Positions 55,764 to 64,000 of a stretch of DNA of 64,000 bases are shown here, piece by piece. The stretch is from Deltaproteobacteria bacterium (lineage in GTDB: Bacteria; Desulfobacterota; Desulfobacteria; Desulfobacterales; SpSt-501). The position numbers and the translations under genes are program-made. The stretch lies in NCBI GenBank assembly GCA_016219005.1, contig JACRCN010000096.1, positions 1 to 64,000 of the forward strand, in the 5' to 3' direction. Positions within the stretch are counted from its first letter, which is position 1. Each line of letters starts with the position of its first letter. The notes under the pieces were generated by a model, which saw only the letters and a program-made list of their open reading frames with translations, was not told where the DNA came from and did no database searches.

Positions 55764-56885
55764 ATGAAAATCATGCAATCGAATCAAAAAGCTACCCATG
55801 TAATAGCTTGCGGAATGATTTGGCTCTGGCTTCTTTTGGTTTTACCCGAGAGCGCATTTCCTCAAGTTGAACGTGCAACTCCACCCACGCTGCTGGTAGG
55901 GGTTATGGTGGCTCCGCCGTTATACATGAAAACGGCTGATGGCCAATGGGGGGGCTTCGGCGTTGAAGTTTGGCAAGCCGTAGCAAGGCAGATGGGCGCT
56001 TTATTCGAATATCGGGAATACAACAGCCTCGGGCTTTTGCTGGATGCGATCAAAAACGGCGACATAGATGTCATTCCTTCCGTGCCTGTCGAAGAGAGAT
56101 ATGAATCTGCCATGGATTTTAGTCAATCATACTTGAAATCGGGATTAGCCATTGCGGTACCGGCGGAAGGCGTCGGTGACAGATGGATGAGTGTTATCGC
56201 CAGTATATTTTCAAAAGATATCTTGGGAGCCGTCGGATTGCTGGTGTTGATGTCTCTTACAGCCGGGATAATCGTGTGGTCATTTGAAAGACGCCGGAAC
56301 AGCGAAATGTTCGGCGATGGGGCATTGAGGGGGATCGGTCATGGACTCTGGTGGTCCATGGTGACAATGACCACTGTGGGATATGGAGATAAGGCACCAA
56401 AAACAATTGGCGGGCGAATCGTTGCGCTCATTTGGATGATTTTTTCAATTGTTTTTATCGCCAGCTTTACAGCCAACATCACGGCATCGCTGACCATTGG
56501 TGAACTAAGAGGCAAGGTTCGCGGCTTTAATGATCTCCACAATGCGCGAGTCGGATCTATATCCCGATCCGAAGGTTTCGACTTTCTGGCTAAACGGGGA
56601 ATAGCCGTGATTCCCATTGAAAATTATCAGGAAGGGTTGCTGGCGGTTGATAGCAAAAAGATCGATGCGTTTGTCCAAGATGAATACATATTGCACCATC
56701 TGGTAAAAAGTGAGTTCCCCGGTCGAGTGCAGGTTTTGCCTGGAACCTTCGACGAATATTTCGTCAGCATTGCGTTACAGGAAAAAGGGCCGCTCCGCAA
56801 ACCGATAAACAATGCGCTGCTGAAATTCATGCGAACGCAAAATTGGACTGAGTTGCTGAATCGGTACATAAAAATGGGGGGTTAA
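55764..56885 (+). CDS. GluR0-like ligand-gated potassium channel
   Basis: A 373-residue protein with a signal peptide (about 1-34) and a periplasmic-binding-protein type 3 domain split by an ion-channel pore. S1 is at about 40-135, M1 at about 152-173, the pore loop with the K+ selectivity filter TTVGYGD at 203-209, M2 at about 217-240, and S2 at about 250-368. M2 ends in SFTANITASLT (234-244), which resembles the SYTANLAAF gating motif of animal glutamate receptors. R112 (EERYESAMDFS) sits where amino-acid carboxylates bind. It should be an amino-acid-gated K+ channel. Composition is AT-richer than neighbours. The start at 55764 has no strong ribosome binding site; 55773 is possible. Confidence 0.9.
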   Translation: MKIMQSNQKATHVIACGMIWLWLLLVLPESAFPQVERATPPTLLVGVMVAPPLYMKTADGQWGGFGVEVWQAVARQMGALFEYREYNSLGLLLDAIKNGDIDVIPSVPVEERYESAMDFSQSYLKSGLAIAVPAEGVGDRWMSVIASIFSKDILGAVGLLVLMSLTAGIIVWSFERRRNSEMFGDGALRGIGHGLWWSMVTMTTVGYGDKAPKTIGGRIVALIWMIFSIVFIASFTANITASLTIGELRGKVRGFNDLHNARVGSISRSEGFDFLAKRGIAVIPIENYQEGLLAVDSKKIDAFVQDEYILHHLVKSEFPGRVQVLPGTFDEYFVSIALQEKGPLRKPINNALLKFMRTQNWTELLNRYIKMGG

Positions 56886-58477: not shown

Positions 58478-58492
58478 TGGCACAATCCATGC
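58478..58492 (+). promoter_or_regulatory. Sigma-54 (-24/-12) promoter
   Basis: TGGCAC (58478-58483) and ATGC (58489-58492) with exactly ten bases between the GG and GC dinucleotides, the defining spacing of RpoN promoters. It is 43 bases before the first gene of the operon. Confidence 0.8.
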
Positions 58493-58534
58493 GTAAAGCC
58501 CCACCTCGTACCAACATTATGAGGAGTTGGCGGA

Positions 58535-58777
58535 TTGGAGCAGAAGGCTGATTATCGCTTGGACTTGCGCGGTGCAATCACCCCCATCACACTGTTGAAG
58601 GCGACGGAGGTGTTCCGACAGATGAAATGCAACCAGGTCCTGGAAGTCGTCGGCCGCGATTCCGACACCCGGAATGATTTGTTGAAAGTGCTGCCGCCGC
58701 TTTCATTCGATTTGATCTCAAGCGAGGAGATCGCAGAGGACATGTCCTATCGAATTCAGCTGAAAAAGAGGCGCTGA
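58535..58777 (+). CDS. TusA-like protein lacking the catalytic cysteine
   Basis: An 80-residue protein from a TTG start supported by GAGGAG eight bases upstream. It has the TusA/SirA fold pattern: LDLRGAITPITLLKATEVFRQM corresponds to the TusA helix, but the CPxP motif reads T16-P17-I18, so the sulfur-carrying cysteine is replaced by threonine. The rest (VLEVVGRDSDTRNDLLKVL) follows the family. It cannot act as a persulfide carrier in the usual way; a regulatory or scaffold role is possible. First gene after the sigma-54 promoter. Confidence 0.8.
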   Translation: MEQKADYRLDLRGAITPITLLKATEVFRQMKCNQVLEVVGRDSDTRNDLLKVLPPLSFDLISSEEIAEDMSYRIQLKKRR

Positions 58778-58887
58778 GACACATGCCGCACGGCGGCAAC
58801 GCGCCGCACGCGCCTGGGATTGAAGACATCAGCAGAAGACACTCTTGCACCGTCCGGTCGGCACCCGGACAAAAGGGAGAAGATACG

Positions 58888-59760
58888 ATGAACCTCAAAA
58901 AGAAGTTGAAATCTGGCGAGTTCGTCGTCCTCGCGGAAATGGAGACTCCTCGCGGAGTCGACATTTCAGAACTGGTCGGCAATGCGCAGCGGCTCAAAGG
59001 ACGCGTTGACGCCGTCGTCGTCCCTGACATGGACTGCGGGGCCATGCGGCTGAGCGCACTGGCGGGTGCTGCGCTGATGCAGCAGCAGGGGATCGAGTCT
59101 GTCATTCACGTGTACGGCCGGGACCGCAACCAGATGGCCCTGCAGAGCGATCTGTTGGGCGCCTACGTCCTGGGGGTGCGCAACTTGGTCGTCGTCTCCG
59201 GCGAAGGAATCAGCCAATGCGATCACCGCAAGGCCAAGGCGGTCGACGATCTGGACGAAATGTCGATCCTGCAAATGATTCGGTGCCTGCAGCAGGGACT
59301 GGACCTTGCCGGCTTTGAGCTGAAGGGGACCCCGGCGTTCACGACGGGATGCACCCTGCCGGCATGCGCTGACGAAAAAGCGTTCGAGGCGGCGATCGAG
59401 CAGGTTCGCCGAAAGATTGCAGCAGGCGCCGAATATGTCGTCACCGCCCCCATTTTCAACTTTGAGCACAGCATTTCCTGCCTGAAGCGGGCCATGAGCC
59501 TCGGGGTCCCCGTGATCCCAACAGTTCTGCTGCTGAAATCAGTAGGTATGGCGAGGTACATCGCTGTGAACGAACCTGGCTCGATGTTATCGGAAGCTCT
59601 GATCGCCCGCATACGCAAGGCACCTGACCGTGAGGAGGAGTGCCTGCGCATTGCAGCGGAAATCGTTGCCGGTTTGAAAGGGGTGGCCCAGGGGATCAAA
59701 ATTCAGGCCCTGGGCTGGGAGCATCGCCTTCCGGCCGTCCTCGATCTGGCTGGCATTTAA
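58888..59760 (+). CDS. metF: Methylenetetrahydrofolate reductase (MetF family)
   Basis: 290 residues from MNLKKKLKSG at 58888 (GGGAGAAG box). An FAD-binding TIM barrel of the MetF family that interconverts methylene- and methyl-tetrahydrofolate. Visible motifs are VVLAEMETPRGVDI (the acidic residue near the N-terminus), HVYGRDRN and the NLVVVSGEG strand. It lacks the long NADH-binding additions, consistent with using electrons from partner proteins. Neighbours HdrA, MvhD and MetV support a multi-subunit complex. Confidence 0.88.
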   Translation: MNLKKKLKSGEFVVLAEMETPRGVDISELVGNAQRLKGRVDAVVVPDMDCGAMRLSALAGAALMQQQGIESVIHVYGRDRNQMALQSDLLGAYVLGVRNLVVVSGEGISQCDHRKAKAVDDLDEMSILQMIRCLQQGLDLAGFELKGTPAFTTGCTLPACADEKAFEAAIEQVRRKIAAGAEYVVTAPIFNFEHSISCLKRAMSLGVPVIPTVLLLKSVGMARYIAVNEPGSMLSEALIARIRKAPDREEECLRIAAEIVAGLKGVAQGIKIQALGWEHRLPAVLDLAGI

Positions 59761-59827
59761 TGCGGGCCTGCGCGACGCTGTCCATCGATGTGTCTATTCA
59801 AAACACCCTATGTGGATGAACCTGATC

Positions 59828-62800
59828 ATGGCAACTGAGAAACAGACGGAGCCTTGCAGTGACATTCTGGTAGTAGGGGCCGGGATCGGCGGCTTGAAAG
59901 CCGCCATGGACCTCTCCGAAGCCAGCCGCCGGGTGGTGCTGATCGACAAGGCTTTTTCTATCGGCGGCCTGATGGCCCGGCTGGACAGAACTTTTCCAAC
60001 CAACAACTGCGATCTGTGCACGCTCTCGCCCCAGTTGTCGGAAACCGGGCGCCGGCAGCATATCGAGCTGATGTCCGGCACTCAACTGTCAGCCGTCCAG
60101 GGAGAAGTCGGCCGATTCAGCGCCAGCCTGACCATTGCACCTCGGTTCATCGACTTGAATCTGTGCACCGCCTGCGGCGAGTGTTACAAACGCTTCCCGC
60201 AATGGGTGCGTTTCACTCCCGGCCTGGATCACCGGGCCCCCACCTGCATGCGCTACCCCCAGGCCACTCCGTACGCCTTCTCCGTTTACCCGGAGGCCTC
60301 TTGCCACAAGGACGAGCTGGTCCGGGTGTGCCCGGCCGGCGCTATTTTGACAGAAGATCGCGAACGGGTGGAAACCCGGCTGTTTGGGGCCATCATCCTG
60401 GCGGCAGGCGCCGAGCTCTTCGCCCCCGCCCACCTGGATTACCTGTCCCGGGGCCTCTCGGTCGATGTCCTGACCGGTCTCGAGTACGAGCGGATTTTGT
60501 CCGCTTCCGGCCCGACGCACGGCGAGCTCATCCGGCCCTCCGACGGAAAGCCGCCGCAGCGAATCGCCTGGATCCAGTGCGTGGGTTCCCGCGGGATCAA
60601 CACCGCCGACGTTTCCTATTGCTCGAGCGTATGCTGCATGGCCGCTATCAAGGAAGCGATCGTCACGCGCGAGCGATTTGGAAACGATATTGAAACCACG
60701 ATTTTTTACATGGACATCCGGACGGGGGGAAAGGACTACGAGCTCTATTACCAGCGCGCCCTCAAGGAGTATGGGGTACGCTTCGTACGTTGTCGGCCGC
60801 ACAGCGTGGTGGTTGGCGATGCCGGGCAGCTCCAGATCGCATACCTCCGCGAAGAAAACGGCCGGTTGGAGACGGAACGATTCGACATGGTGGTGCTCTC
60901 CTCGGGTTTCCGCGCTTCGCAGGAGACCGAAGACCTAGGGCGGAGGTTGGGGATCGAGCTGAACCGGCACCACTTCGCCGAAGCCGGGGGATTCAGCCCG
61001 GTCTCAACCTCGCGGCCGGGAATATATGTCTGCGGAACCTTTGAAAGCCCAAAAGACATACCCGAAACCATCGTTCAATCCAGTGCGGCTGCTTGCCTGG
61101 CCATGGAGACCGCAGGGCGGCTCGACCCAGGTGCGGGGCAAGTGGAAGCAGTGCCACCGGAACGGGATGTTGCCGGAGAACCTCCTCGCATCGGAGTCTT
61201 TGTCTGCGACTGCGGGTTTAACATCGGCGGCGTCATCGACGTCGAAGCCGTGGTTGCCCACGTCGCGACGCTTCCTGAAGTCCTCGTGTCGGAAATAGCC
61301 GGTCATGGTTGCTCCAGTGCCGCCATGGAGCGCATCGAGAGCGCCATTCGGGAGAAAGGGCTGAACCGCATCGTGATCGGCGGTTGTTCTCCCCGAACCC
61401 GCGAGACGCTGTTTCAGAACACCCTGCGGAAGGCCGGCCTGAACAAGTATCTGGTGGAGATTGTTAACATCCGCGATCAGGTCACCTGGGTCCACGCCCA
61501 CCTGGCCGACCAAGCGACCGAAAAGGCCAAAGACTTGCTGCGCATGGCGGTCGGCAGCGTTCGCTACCGTCGGCCTCACACCGACTTGGTTCTCCCGATG
61601 AACAAGGACGTGCTGGTCGTAGGTGGGGGAGTCAGCGGCATGACCGCTGCATTGAGCCTGGCCAGTCAAGGTTTCAAGGTAATCTTGGTCGAACGGATGC
61701 GCGAACTAGGCGGCCTGGCCGGGCAGCTTCGCAAAAGTTTGGAAGGGGATGACATCGGGGCCCATGTTCGTTCGCTGGTCGATAGCACCTTGAGCCACAA
61801 GCGCATCGAGGTGTTGACCCAAACGATCATCGTCGACCATTCCGGCATGCCGGGGGCGTTTTCGACCGGCTTGCAGGCCGGGCCCCGGATGCTCTACCGC
61901 CAAATCCGGCACGGCGCCACAATTCTCGCCACCGGTGCGCTTCCCCTGCGGCCGGCGGAGCACCTGCTGGGGGAGCACGGCGCCGTCGTGACTCAACTCG
62001 ACCTGGACGGTATCATCGAGGACCACCCGGACCGGGTGGCCTCGTGGAACACGGTGGTCATGATCCAATGCGTGGGCTCGCGGACGCCGGAAAACCCGAA
62101 CTGCTCCAAGATATGCTGCCAAAGCGCGGTCAAGAACATCTTGCGGATAGGCCGCCTCAACCCCGATGCCCGAATTTTTGTTCTCTACCGCGATATGCGG
62201 ACCACCGGCTTCCAAGAAGATTACGCCATCGAGGCACGCAAAATGGGAGCAGTCTTTGTCCGGTACGAGGAAAATGCCAAACCTGACGTGAGGATCGTCG
62301 GAGACAAGCTGACGGTAGCTTTCGAGGACCGAATTCTGGGAAGGCGGTTGCAGGTCGAGACAGACTGCCTGGCGTTAAGCACCGGCTTCGTGGCCGACGA
62401 CGAAGGGACCGAGGACCTGGCTGCCATATTTCACCTCAGCCGCACCGCGGACGGATTCTTCCGGGAGGACCATGTCAAGCTCAGACCGGTAGAGCTTTCA
62501 GTGCCGGGTTTCACAGTGGCAGGCACGGCTCTCGGGCCCAAGAGTGTCCGGGAGAGTATCACGCAGGCCCTGGCGGCATCGGCGAGGACCCAGGCGCTGC
62601 TATCCAGGGACACGATCAACCTCGGCGCCGTTGCAGCGCGAGTAGACCGCAAGCGGTGCGCCGCTTGTCTGTTGTGCGTCCGGGCCTGCCCGTATCACAT
62701 TCCGTTCATCAATGCGGACGGTGTCTCTGAAATAGATGCGACGCGCTGCCATGGCTGCGGGACCTGCGCGGCCGAATGTCCCGCAAAGGCCATCGAACTG

Positions 62801-62863
62801 GTCCAGTTCGAGGACGACGTGATCACGGCCCAGTTGAATGGGCTGTTGGAAAGGTTGAACTGA
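59828..62863 (+). CDS. Double-module HdrA-type flavoprotein
   Basis: About 1011 residues from the ATG at 59828 (alternatives 59810 and 59816; all have weak ribosome sites). The N-terminal half is an HdrA-like FAD module (VVGAGIGGLKAAMDL) with a ferredoxin insert, followed by a complete HdrA (about 460-1011): CDCGFNIGG, GGCSPRTRETLFQNT, a second FAD site (VVGGGVSGMTAALSL) and two full [4Fe-4S] motifs (C944-C954 and C974-C984). In the N-terminal insert the first cluster has C113, C116, C119 but F123 instead of the fourth cysteine, and the second keeps only C159 and C168. HdrA bifurcates electrons at FAD in heterodisulfide reductase complexes. Confidence 0.9.
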   Translation: MATEKQTEPCSDILVVGAGIGGLKAAMDLSEASRRVVLIDKAFSIGGLMARLDRTFPTNNCDLCTLSPQLSETGRRQHIELMSGTQLSAVQGEVGRFSASLTIAPRFIDLNLCTACGECYKRFPQWVRFTPGLDHRAPTCMRYPQATPYAFSVYPEASCHKDELVRVCPAGAILTEDRERVETRLFGAIILAAGAELFAPAHLDYLSRGLSVDVLTGLEYERILSASGPTHGELIRPSDGKPPQRIAWIQCVGSRGINTADVSYCSSVCCMAAIKEAIVTRERFGNDIETTIFYMDIRTGGKDYELYYQRALKEYGVRFVRCRPHSVVVGDAGQLQIAYLREENGRLETERFDMVVLSSGFRASQETEDLGRRLGIELNRHHFAEAGGFSPVSTSRPGIYVCGTFESPKDIPETIVQSSAAACLAMETAGRLDPGAGQVEAVPPERDVAGEPPRIGVFVCDCGFNIGGVIDVEAVVAHVATLPEVLVSEIAGHGCSSAAMERIESAIREKGLNRIVIGGCSPRTRETLFQNTLRKAGLNKYLVEIVNIRDQVTWVHAHLADQATEKAKDLLRMAVGSVRYRRPHTDLVLPMNKDVLVVGGGVSGMTAALSLASQGFKVILVERMRELGGLAGQLRKSLEGDDIGAHVRSLVDSTLSHKRIEVLTQTIIVDHSGMPGAFSTGLQAGPRMLYRQIRHGATILATGALPLRPAEHLLGEHGAVVTQLDLDGIIEDHPDRVASWNTVVMIQCVGSRTPENPNCSKICCQSAVKNILRIGRLNPDARIFVLYRDMRTTGFQEDYAIEARKMGAVFVRYEENAKPDVRIVGDKLTVAFEDRILGRRLQVETDCLALSTGFVADDEGTEDLAAIFHLSRTADGFFREDHVKLRPVELSVPGFTVAGTALGPKSVRESITQALAASARTQALLSRDTINLGAVAARVDRKRCAACLLCVRACPYHIPFINADGVSEIDATRCHGCGTCAAECPAKAIELVQFEDDVITAQLNGLLERLN

Positions 62864-63339
62864 TGGAGGATTTTGAACCCGTCATCGTGGCCTTCTGCTG
62901 CCACTACTGTGCCTACACGGCGGCGGACATGGCAGGCAGCCTGCGGCTGTGCTACCCACCCAACGTCAAAATCATCCGGGTGCCGTGCAGCGGCAAGGTG
63001 GACACCATTCACCTCATGCAGGCGATCAAGGGCGGGGCGGACGGAGTTTACGTGGCCGGCTGCCTGGAAGGAGACTGCCACTTCAAAAGCGGCAATGCCA
63101 AAGCCGCCCGGAGGGTGGTTTACGCGAAGCGGCTTCTGAACGACGTCGGCATTGAGCCGGAGCGCATCGAAATGATCATGATGTCGGCCGGCATGGGAGA
63201 GCGCTTTGCGGCGACAGCTGAGGAGTTCACGGCCAAAATCCGCGGGATGGGCCCCAACCCAGTCAAACTCATGCGGGCAACCGCGATCCGCGATCCCCAC
63301 AACGTTTCACCGGCCCACAAGGAGAGTGCCGCAGTATGA
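62863..63339 (+). CDS. mvhD: MvhD-type [2Fe-2S] electron-transfer subunit
   Basis: 158 residues from the ATG at 62863, which overlaps the HdrA stop (TGATG). The N-terminal FCCHYCAYTAADMAG, GCLEGDCHFKSGN and VPCSGKVDTIHL motifs are those of MvhD, the protein that passes electrons between HdrA and a partner dehydrogenase or hydrogenase. The stop overlaps the next start by ATGA, so HdrA, MvhD and MetV are translationally coupled. Confidence 0.93.
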   Translation: MEDFEPVIVAFCCHYCAYTAADMAGSLRLCYPPNVKIIRVPCSGKVDTIHLMQAIKGGADGVYVAGCLEGDCHFKSGNAKAARRVVYAKRLLNDVGIEPERIEMIMMSAGMGERFAATAEEFTAKIRGMGPNPVKLMRATAIRDPHNVSPAHKESAAV

Positions 63340-64000
63340 TCACCGCCGAACGTAAACCTATTCAGGAAATCATGAACCTTGTCTCGCCGTACAAGAACCT
63401 CCTGCTGGTCGGGTGCAATGAATGCGTAACCGTCTGCTCTGCCGGAGGCCGTAAAGAGGTGGCGCTGTTGTCCTCCGCCCTGCAGGTTGCCTTCATGAAG
63501 TCGGGCCGGATCGTCCACATCCAGGAAATGACACTGGAACGCCAGTGCGATCCCGAATACATCGAGCAGCTTGTTCCGCACATCGACTCGGTCGATGCGG
63601 TGCTGTCGCTGGCATGCGGCTGCGGGGTCCAGGAGATCGCCCGTCGCTTCAAGGAAAAGATGGTCTTCCCCGGGGTAAACACGAAGTTCATGGGGGCCTC
63701 CGAACGCCCGGGCGTGTGGGCCGAGAGATGCCAGGGCTGCGGGGATTGCCTTCTCGGGGTCACCGGCGGCATCTGCCCCATCGCGCGGTGCTCCAAGCGG
63801 CTTCAGAACGGGCCCTGCGGCGGCTCGAGCAAGGGCAAATGTGAAATCGGCCCGGATGTCGACTGCGCCTGGCAGCTGATCTGGGACCGGCTGAAGGCCT
63901 TGGGACTGCAAGAGCGTTACGAGACCCTATTGCCGGCTAAAAACTGGCGCAACGGCCGTGGCGGCGGCCCCCGCAAAATCGTCAGAGAGGACTTGATGTG
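63336..64000 (+). CDS. metV: MetV-type protein, cut by the window edge
   Basis: At least 221 residues, no stop before the right end. It overlaps the MvhD stop (ATGA). The C-terminal part has the cysteine-rich MetV (methylenetetrahydrofolate reductase C-terminal) pattern: CQGCGDC (132-138), ICPIARCSKRLQNGPCGG and KCEIGPDVDCAWQLIWDRL. N-terminal cysteines C27, C30 and C34 may bind another cluster. MetV passes electrons to MetF in acetogen-type reductases. The next gene cannot be seen. Confidence 0.88.
   Translation, partial: MITAERKPIQEIMNLVSPYKNLLLVGCNECVTVCSAGGRKEVALLSSALQVAFMKSGRIVHIQEMTLERQCDPEYIEQLVPHIDSVDAVLSLACGCGVQEIARRFKEKMVFPGVNTKFMGASERPGVWAERCQGCGDCLLGVTGGICPIARCSKRLQNGPCGGSSKGKCEIGPDVDCAWQLIWDRLKALGLQERYETLLPAKNWRNGRGGGPRKIVREDLM

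Follow-up and report, generated by a model that had tools for sequence, protein, structure and literature searches.

Background

Where do the electrons go when sulfate-reducing bacteria oxidize acetate through the reversed acetyl-CoA pathway and reach the methyl-tetrahydrofolate (methyl-THF) step? To our knowledge this is not settled. An operon that bears on the question lies at the end of a 64,000-nucleotide stretch of DNA (the window) from Deltaproteobacteria bacterium, a member of the Desulfobacterales (assembly GCA_016219005.1). The window comprises bases 1-64000 of the 73,518-base contig JACRCN010000096.1, and the genome amounts to 5.24 Mb. An initial annotation of the window described a sigma-54-controlled series of genes in the order TusA-like, MetF, double HdrA, MvhD and MetV. 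All are found in that order. The operon runs beyond the window edge on the same contig, where MetV is followed by a second MetF gene (MetF2), a receiver-domain gene and a gene for a 207-amino-acid protein; the MetF inside the window is here called MetF1.

Four classes of methylene-tetrahydrofolate reductase (MTHFR) have been distinguished, and the heterodisulfide reductase (Hdr) type consists of MetVF with HdrCBA and MvhD (PMC9430772; published systems are cited here from extracts of the papers). The operon is a conserved variant of this Hdr type as known from Moorella and Sporomusa. It is ranked as a variant and not as a plain member because HdrB and HdrC are not in the operon. Its added subunits, its cysteine form without a glutamate-synthase-type (GltD) domain and its promoter are well supported by comparison of predicted genes. 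Here we describe the conservation of the operon, identify the MetF that is likely catalytic, and weigh the ways in which the complex might work.

A conserved operon with two MetF proteins

Relatives were collected by a scan of named species genomes with two peptide patterns, in which 80 of the 116 relatives were kept; this sampling favours close relatives, and each gene was counted only among loci long enough to cover it. The core order is kept throughout. HdrA is present in 76/76 loci, MvhD in 67/67, MetV in 65/65, and MetF2 and the receiver gene each in 63/63, with the 207-amino-acid gene in 39 of 58. The MetF1 proteins of the 80 loci are 54-62% identical to that of the window. The record titles name Desulfobacterales, Desulfobacteraceae, Desulfobulbaceae, Desulfocapsaceae, Syntrophobacteraceae, several genera, Deltaproteobacteria and one 'uncultured proteobacterium'. 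Within the order, operons of the window type (MetF1 53-61% identical and HdrA without GltD) are found in 9 of 58 genomes, our own included, and across the phylum at least 39 of 297 genomes have a MetF1 match of 390 bits or more, a cut-off of our choosing; both counts were drawn from best matches only. Three loci outside the order share the gene order and have a more distant GltD-free HdrA of the cysteine form.

The MetF-HdrA-MvhD-MetV unit, which the initial annotation had likened to complexes known from acetogens, is thus supported by gene order in relatives, with HdrA and MvhD in one unit and MetF2 adjoining MetV. The overlapping stop and start codons it had reported from HdrA onward are also there: HdrA and MvhD share TGATG, MvhD and MetV share ATGA, and MetV overlaps MetF2 at the window edge.

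MetF2 and MetV are, from their sequences, likely the catalytic pair. Residues were read from an alignment to E. coli MetF of 88 window-type MetF1s (84 distinct), 18 other MetF1s and 74 MetF2s (69 of them window type). Glu28, Asp120 and Gln183, which we take to be folate-site or catalytic residues of the E. coli enzyme, are all kept in 74/74 MetF2s; titles of PDB entries record that Glu28 and Asp120 mutants of E. coli MTHFR were studied. Position 120 of the window-type MetF1s is Glu in 83 of 88, Val in two and Asp in three, while position 183 is Pro in 82, Ala in one (the window protein), Ser in one and Gln in four. The 18 other MetF1s have Glu (16), Ser (1) or Gln (1) at position 120 and Pro (13), Thr (3), Ser (1) or Gln (1) at position 183. 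MetF1 is therefore probably not the folate-reducing subunit. The initial annotation had placed the MetF of the window in a complex for methylene-/methyl-THF conversion; the likely catalytic MetF lies just outside the window. A phmmer search (E up to 0.001) found no solved structure related to MetV.

Relationship to known systems

The closest likeness is to the HdrCBA-MvhD-MetVF system of Sporomusa ovata, with which the operon shares MetV, MetF, MvhD and an HdrA that has an additional TrxR-like domain and no GltD (PMC9430772). The double HdrA, listed among the less familiar features by the initial annotation, was thus already known. The window operon differs in having MetF1, a gene for a TusA-fold protein, a receiver gene and sigma-54 control, and in lacking HdrCB; the inserted ferredoxin of its HdrA is partly kept, whereas that of Sporomusa is described as missing (PMC9430772). 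Moorella thermoacetica likewise has MetF, MetV, HdrA and MvhD in one unit, but its HdrA carries GltD, unlike the window HdrA and like paralogues on another contig (C61) of our genome (PMC9430772, PMC6085437). No MetF1 is described for the Moorella system in the extracts of these papers. By their predicted domains, then, the C61 operons resemble the Moorella type and the window operon the Sporomusa type.

Other bacteria also place metF beside Hdr genes. The metF-HdrABC genes of Seep-SRB1g, within the Desulfobacterota, were proposed to encode a bifurcating complex; MetF1, TusA and sigma-54 are not mentioned in the extracts of that report (PMC10553843). The hdrABC-mvhD-metVF cluster of the Chloroflexi DscP3 contains an HdrB-HdrC fusion, and two-component genes flank its metF_1. 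The genome has two metVF sets, and the second MetF, closest to that of Acetobacterium, belongs to the second metV-metF set, unlike the arrangement in the window operon (PMC5736913).

No paper bringing together methylene-tetrahydrofolate reductase, heterodisulfide reductase and TusA was found in the open-licence literature searched. Nor, within its partial coverage, did any description turn up of a degenerate MetF1 as a subunit in its own right, or of an association with a TusA-fold protein or sigma-54. One paper, on Geobacter, names HdrA, sigma-54 and the reductase, and another names MetF2 with HdrA and methylenetetrahydrofolate. What appears new is a degenerate MetF1 beside an intact MetF2, a cysteine-less TusA-like protein, and UGA-containing paralogues with GltD alongside a GltD-free cysteine form in one genome. 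The operon is a specific, conserved candidate for electron transfer from methyl-THF in cultured genera, namely Desulfatitalea, Desulforhabdus, Desulfoferrobacter and Desulfospira by record title. Comparison across operons predicts which MetF is catalytic, and a single genome offers the contrast between the GltD-bearing UGA form and the GltD-free Cys form.

A proposed route for the electrons

A GltD-free methylene-THF reductase of the Hdr type is, in our view, the fairly probable product of the operon, with the roles given here and in the sections below. Its activity, direction, redox partner, complex formation and bifurcation are what we infer. MetF2 and MetV would interconvert 5,10-methylene-THF and 5-methyl-THF, as their families and conserved residues suggest. 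Electrons would reach the two-flavin HdrA by way of MetV and MvhD, and HdrA would couple them to a second carrier. This carrier is less likely to be NAD(P)H (reduced nicotinamide adenine dinucleotide or its phosphate), because HdrA is without the GltD/NAD(P)H module of the paralogues; a disulfide or quinone-level acceptor reached through an HdrC-HdrB protein, or ferredoxin, seems likelier.

HdrB and HdrC are absent from the window operon. In 15 of 57 covered loci a gene for an HdrC-HdrB fusion follows the TusA-fold gene and precedes MetF1. Such a gene, with an in-frame UGA, was seen upstream of MetF1 in L094, L097 and L102, among other loci. Our genome encodes homologues in trans, one on contig C74 (71% identical, one UGA) and one on contig C73 (69%, no UGA); the latter adjoins MvhD-like and HdrA-like sequence.

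Several points weigh against this account. The roles of all the operon proteins are predictions from sequence. HdrC-HdrB is not part of the operon, though close homologues lie on C74 and C73. A few window-type MetF1s keep Gln183 (4/88) or Asp120 (3/88). The Hdr proteins of Sporomusa did not co-purify with MetVF, although HdrA was recovered in pulldowns with MetF and with MetV (PMC9430772). By analogy, lack of GltD would not prove lack of NADH use, since the GltD-free Sporomusa HdrA had weak NADH activity of 0.5 U/mg (PMC9430772). Among the nine window-type genomes, which are incomplete, CdhC was found in seven and DsrA in eight.

Our genome encodes DsrA, CdhC of carbon monoxide dehydrogenase/acetyl-CoA synthase (CODH/ACS) and three MttB-family genes, and its host is a probable sulfate-reducing bacterium. 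Contig C68 (bases 1-20011) carries two of the MttB genes with a B12-binding corrinoid protein, a DAO/GCV_T protein like dimethylglycine dehydrogenase and an HdrD-like protein; together they probably serve the catabolism of betaine or methylamines. With CODH/ACS, DsrA and this cluster encoded, acetate or methylated amines could each be a source of methyl-THF. Oxidation of methyl-THF from these sources is therefore plausible on gene content, and would be the likeliest direction. The initial annotation had pointed to the contig beyond the window as the place to look for MttB-type methyltransferases or a second metF. The second metF is there, but no methyltransferase was recognized in the operon or as far as the contig end (the last genes were judged by eye), and the MttB-type genes with their corrinoid protein lie elsewhere in the genome.

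Alternatively, the same complex might be used chiefly in the direction of reduction, fixing CO2 in autotrophy or assimilation. CdhC would serve such a use as well, and the extracts discuss both the acetogen Hdr-type MTHFRs and Seep-SRB1g metF-HdrABC in that direction (PMC9430772, PMC10553843). DsrA and the betaine-type cluster, which would supply methyl groups for oxidation, argue the other way, and we hold mainly reductive use to be possible but the less expected case.

What MetF1 may do

Within the GltD-free methylene-THF reductase proposed above, MetF1 would probably be a non-catalytic flavin or docking subunit, because two folate-site residues are lost while the predicted structure keeps the MTHFR barrel. 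The protein matches the Pfam MTHFR family at 69 bits; its likely start, ATG 58888, lies within a longer reading frame from 58783. Its AlphaFold model, built with 25 sequences, has a mean predicted local distance difference test (pLDDT) score of 89.8, and the 50 best PDB matches listed are all MTHFRs. The barrel is thus retained, but Glu and Ala stand in the places of Asp120 and Gln183.

Tentatively, MetF1 may be a former methylene-THF reductase turned into an electron-handling subunit. The operon would then encode a confurcating enzyme with two MetF barrels, one acting on folate with MetV and the other carrying flavin electrons to or from the extra FAD (flavin adenine dinucleotide) module of HdrA, so that methyl-THF is oxidized without NAD(P)H. 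We think this a doubtful proposal; if it were true, Desulfobacterota would have a two-MetF confurcating enzyme that runs methyl-THF oxidation without NAD(P)H.

An active MetF1 working on another C1 or pterin substrate, which would give the operon two C1 redox activities, is rather unlikely. Glu28 is kept in 85 of the 88 window-type MetF1s, the RDRN..A.Q residues are invariant in 25 aligned MetF1s, and a MetF1-like protein of another group, near an HdrL gene (L189), keeps both Asp120 and Gln183. In nearly all HdrA-linked members, however, Asp120 and Gln183 are replaced, and the gene context points to no alternative substrate. The loss of the two residues may have been gradual, because one MetF1-like relative keeps both and three others (L187, L188 and L195) have Asp120 without Gln183.

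HdrA, GltD and selenium

The window HdrA consists of two HdrA-type FAD modules, and its conserved start is possibly at 59828. The cluster motif CVGSR...CxxxCC is found in each half of the aligned window-type sequences, and all eight that are complete have an intact two-cluster ferredoxin at the C terminus. The inserted ferredoxin keeps three cysteines of the first cluster and has gained another conserved cysteine, but has lost most of the later ones compared with other HdrAs. No GltD domain or insert was found in nine aligned window-type HdrAs, which sets them apart from HdrL. In a tree of 43 HdrA sequences, made with a quick method, 16 window-type sequences form one group with a Shimodaira-Hasegawa-like approximate likelihood ratio test (SH-aLRT) value of 100.

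The paralogous operons at contig C61 of our genome encode a GltD-bearing (HdrL) HdrA that reads FPTNDCAMU and MvhD proteins that read FCCNFU or FCCEYU, where U is an in-frame UGA. Among 24 distinct non-window HdrA copies, 22 have UGA at FPTNDC.MU, with the adjoining MvhD at FCC..U, and two have Cys; the count took 29 fetched loci, with L070, L072, L075-L080 and L086 left out. The window type has Cys in 79/79 HdrA and 69/69 MvhD motifs found in the 80 loci, and is thus no selenoprotein there. Seven of the nine genomes with the window type also have a second MetF1 locus, 43-47% identical; GltD was observed at six of these loci (the contig of G043 ends before it). The sulfate reducer Desulfobacterium autotrophicum likewise has HdrA relatives next to MvhD, with Sec (selenocysteine) and Cys forms in one genome, but its HdrL carries GltD, unlike the window HdrA, and the extracts describe no link to metF (PMC2702500).

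These observations allow the operon to be read as a selenium-sparing isoform, which replaces the UGA-containing complexes of its own genome when selenium is scarce. There are precedents: such replacement under selenium limitation was suggested for the UGA-containing HdrA and MvhD of D. autotrophicum, and Vhc of Methanococcus replaces Vhu when selenium is scarce, a pair cited in the same paper (PMC2702500). The all-Cys window type, the UGA in most other copies, the GltD-type second locus in most window-type genomes and the selenocysteine machinery of our genome speak for it. This machinery includes a tRNA-Sec (UCA), called by ARAGORN beside a SelB gene, and a second SelB. The reading was favoured once the UGA sites had been found, and was then weakened by UGA-containing HdrC-HdrB in related operons and by the HdrA tree. 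The site F.NTE(U)GH of HdrC-HdrB, read by script in 19 of 22 loci (partly covered ones included), is UGA in all 19, which argues against a wholly selenium-free purpose. In the tree, the window-type HdrAs form a separate clade whose neighbours are other GltD-free HdrAs of the Cys form; they are no recent Cys version of HdrL. They differ in domain composition as well, and two GltD-type copies are Cys. We therefore judge selenium sparing to be improbable.

Some further features of these loci were seen. GltD-type HdrA with Cys in place of UGA occurs in L081 and L082, so that Sec and GltD are not always together. In L060 (G011), two GltD-free HdrA copies with UGA, both among the 22, lie between MetF1 and MetF2. 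A shikimate-dehydrogenase-like gene (Pfam) lies 3' of the GltD-type operon in L010 (7080-7892) and, by eye, in L051, L054, L056, L057 and L062. The two SelB genes of our genome are at C100:12719-14739 and C89:33315-35207, with a lower-scoring tRNA-Sec of 55.5 bits beside the first; a second SelB adjoined by such a lower-scoring tRNA-Sec was seen in several relatives, and no higher-scoring tRNA-Sec was found in our genome. SelB was matched in 57 of 58 relatives, 50 above the cut-off, so absence of the Sec machinery does not discriminate. With its loose default setting, the Rfam search for tRNA-Sec gave matches in 14/14 control genomes as well, five above the cut-off, and only the ARAGORN call beside SelB was used.

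The TusA-fold protein and sigma-54 control

The first gene was rightly called TusA-like as to fold. It matches Pfam TusA at 35.5 bits (cut-off 28.6), and its model (pLDDT 83.1) has YeeD and TusA among its best PDB matches by Foldseek. In TusA sulfurtransferases the cysteine of the CPxP motif is catalytic. This position is never Cys in 36/36 TusA-fold sequences, 13 checked by script and 23 by eye, so the name does not hold in the sulfurtransferase sense. Lacking the catalytic cysteine, this small protein is probably a subunit with a structural or regulatory part and does not act as a sulfurtransferase. The TusA fold beside HdrA is reminiscent of the sHdr system of sulfur oxidation, where sulfur is handled by TusA-like and Hdr proteins, but sulfur transfer with incidental MetF genes is highly improbable here, given the missing cysteine and the presence of MetV and MetF2 in every covered locus as against TusA in 27 of 57.

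The RpoN promoter proposed by the initial annotation stands at chance level on the window alone (25 matches with at most two mismatches, 30.9 expected in shuffles; not significant), but it recurs in relatives and a divergent activator adjoins it. Of 30 stretches between activator and TusA (29 loci and the window), 28 contain a site that has both invariant dinucleotides and a score of 9 or more out of 12. In 200 first-order Markov shuffles of the 30 stretches, such a site turned up in 1.2 stretches on average and in 5 at most. The threshold of 9 is the window site's own score and was fixed after the relatives' data had been viewed. The two remaining stretches scored 8 (L103) and 6 (L160). Of the 28 sites, 23 are 37-53 nt 5' of the TusA-fold match and five at 67-153 nt, as counted from the start of the BLAST match and not from mapped gene starts.

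With a conserved -24/-12 site and a linked activator, the operon is predicted to be sigma-54 dependent. The activator is 57-67% identical across activator-bearing loci (51% in the truncated L106). Of 29 activator sequences, our own included, 26 to 29 keep each of cysteines 53, 58, 73 and 86 of the PAS domain, and this conservation suggests a redox or metal signal. Expression would thus be governed by sigma-54 together with this PAS-type activator and its conserved cysteines. With 2.5 kb or more of upstream sequence required, 57 loci could be judged; TusA was found in 27 of them and the divergent activator (above 400 bits) in 26. This regulation is not universal among relatives, because 29 of the 57 have neither. 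Among the cultured genera, the TusA-fold gene was found in Desulfatitalea but not at the Desulfospira locus (L153). The initial annotation had made its proposal hinge on the association persisting in related genomes; the core is not lost, whereas the TusA-fold gene, activator and promoter belong to part of the relatives.

Features and neighbouring genes

Table 1. Positions of the operon and its associated features; positions past 64000 are on the contig beyond the window
Feature	Position	Strand	Basis
Divergent sigma-54 activator (PAS, AAA+ Sigma54_activat, Fis helix-turn-helix), 472 amino acids	56901..58319	-	Domain matches, relatives
Predicted sigma-54 promoter TGGCACAATCCATGCG, 41 nt 5' of the TusA-like start	58478..58493	+	Recurrence in relatives; alone not significant
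TusA-fold protein, 80 amino acids, TTG start, without CPxP catalytic cysteine	58535..58777	+	Pfam TusA, model, alignment
MetF1, MTHFR-fold paralogue, 290 amino acids, Asp120 to Glu and Gln183 to Ala (E. coli MetF numbering)	58888..59760	+	
Double HdrA, 1017 amino acids, Cys form, no GltD, inserted ferredoxin partly degenerate	59810..62863	+	
MvhD/FlpD, 158 amino acids, Cys form (FCCHYCAY)	62863..63339	+	165.6 bits
MetV (DUF5981), 221 amino acids	63336..64001 in contig coordinates (window part 63336..64000)	+	124.5 bits
MetF2, 308 amino acids	63998-64924 in contig coordinates (window holds first bases only, 63998..64000)	+	
Receiver-domain gene after MetF2	64967-65356 in contig coordinates		
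207-amino-acid gene	65343-65966 in contig coordinates		No Pfam match

The features are collected in Table 1. Next, 3' of the 207-amino-acid gene, come two histidine kinases with PAS domains, of which one has a receiver domain as well; they are followed, by eye, by a transporter-like protein and another reading frame on the opposite strand. At 55764-56885 the window encodes a 373-amino-acid protein with a solute-binding domain, a ligand-gated channel domain and a TVGYGD filter, which resembles a bacterial potassium channel of the glutamate-receptor type.

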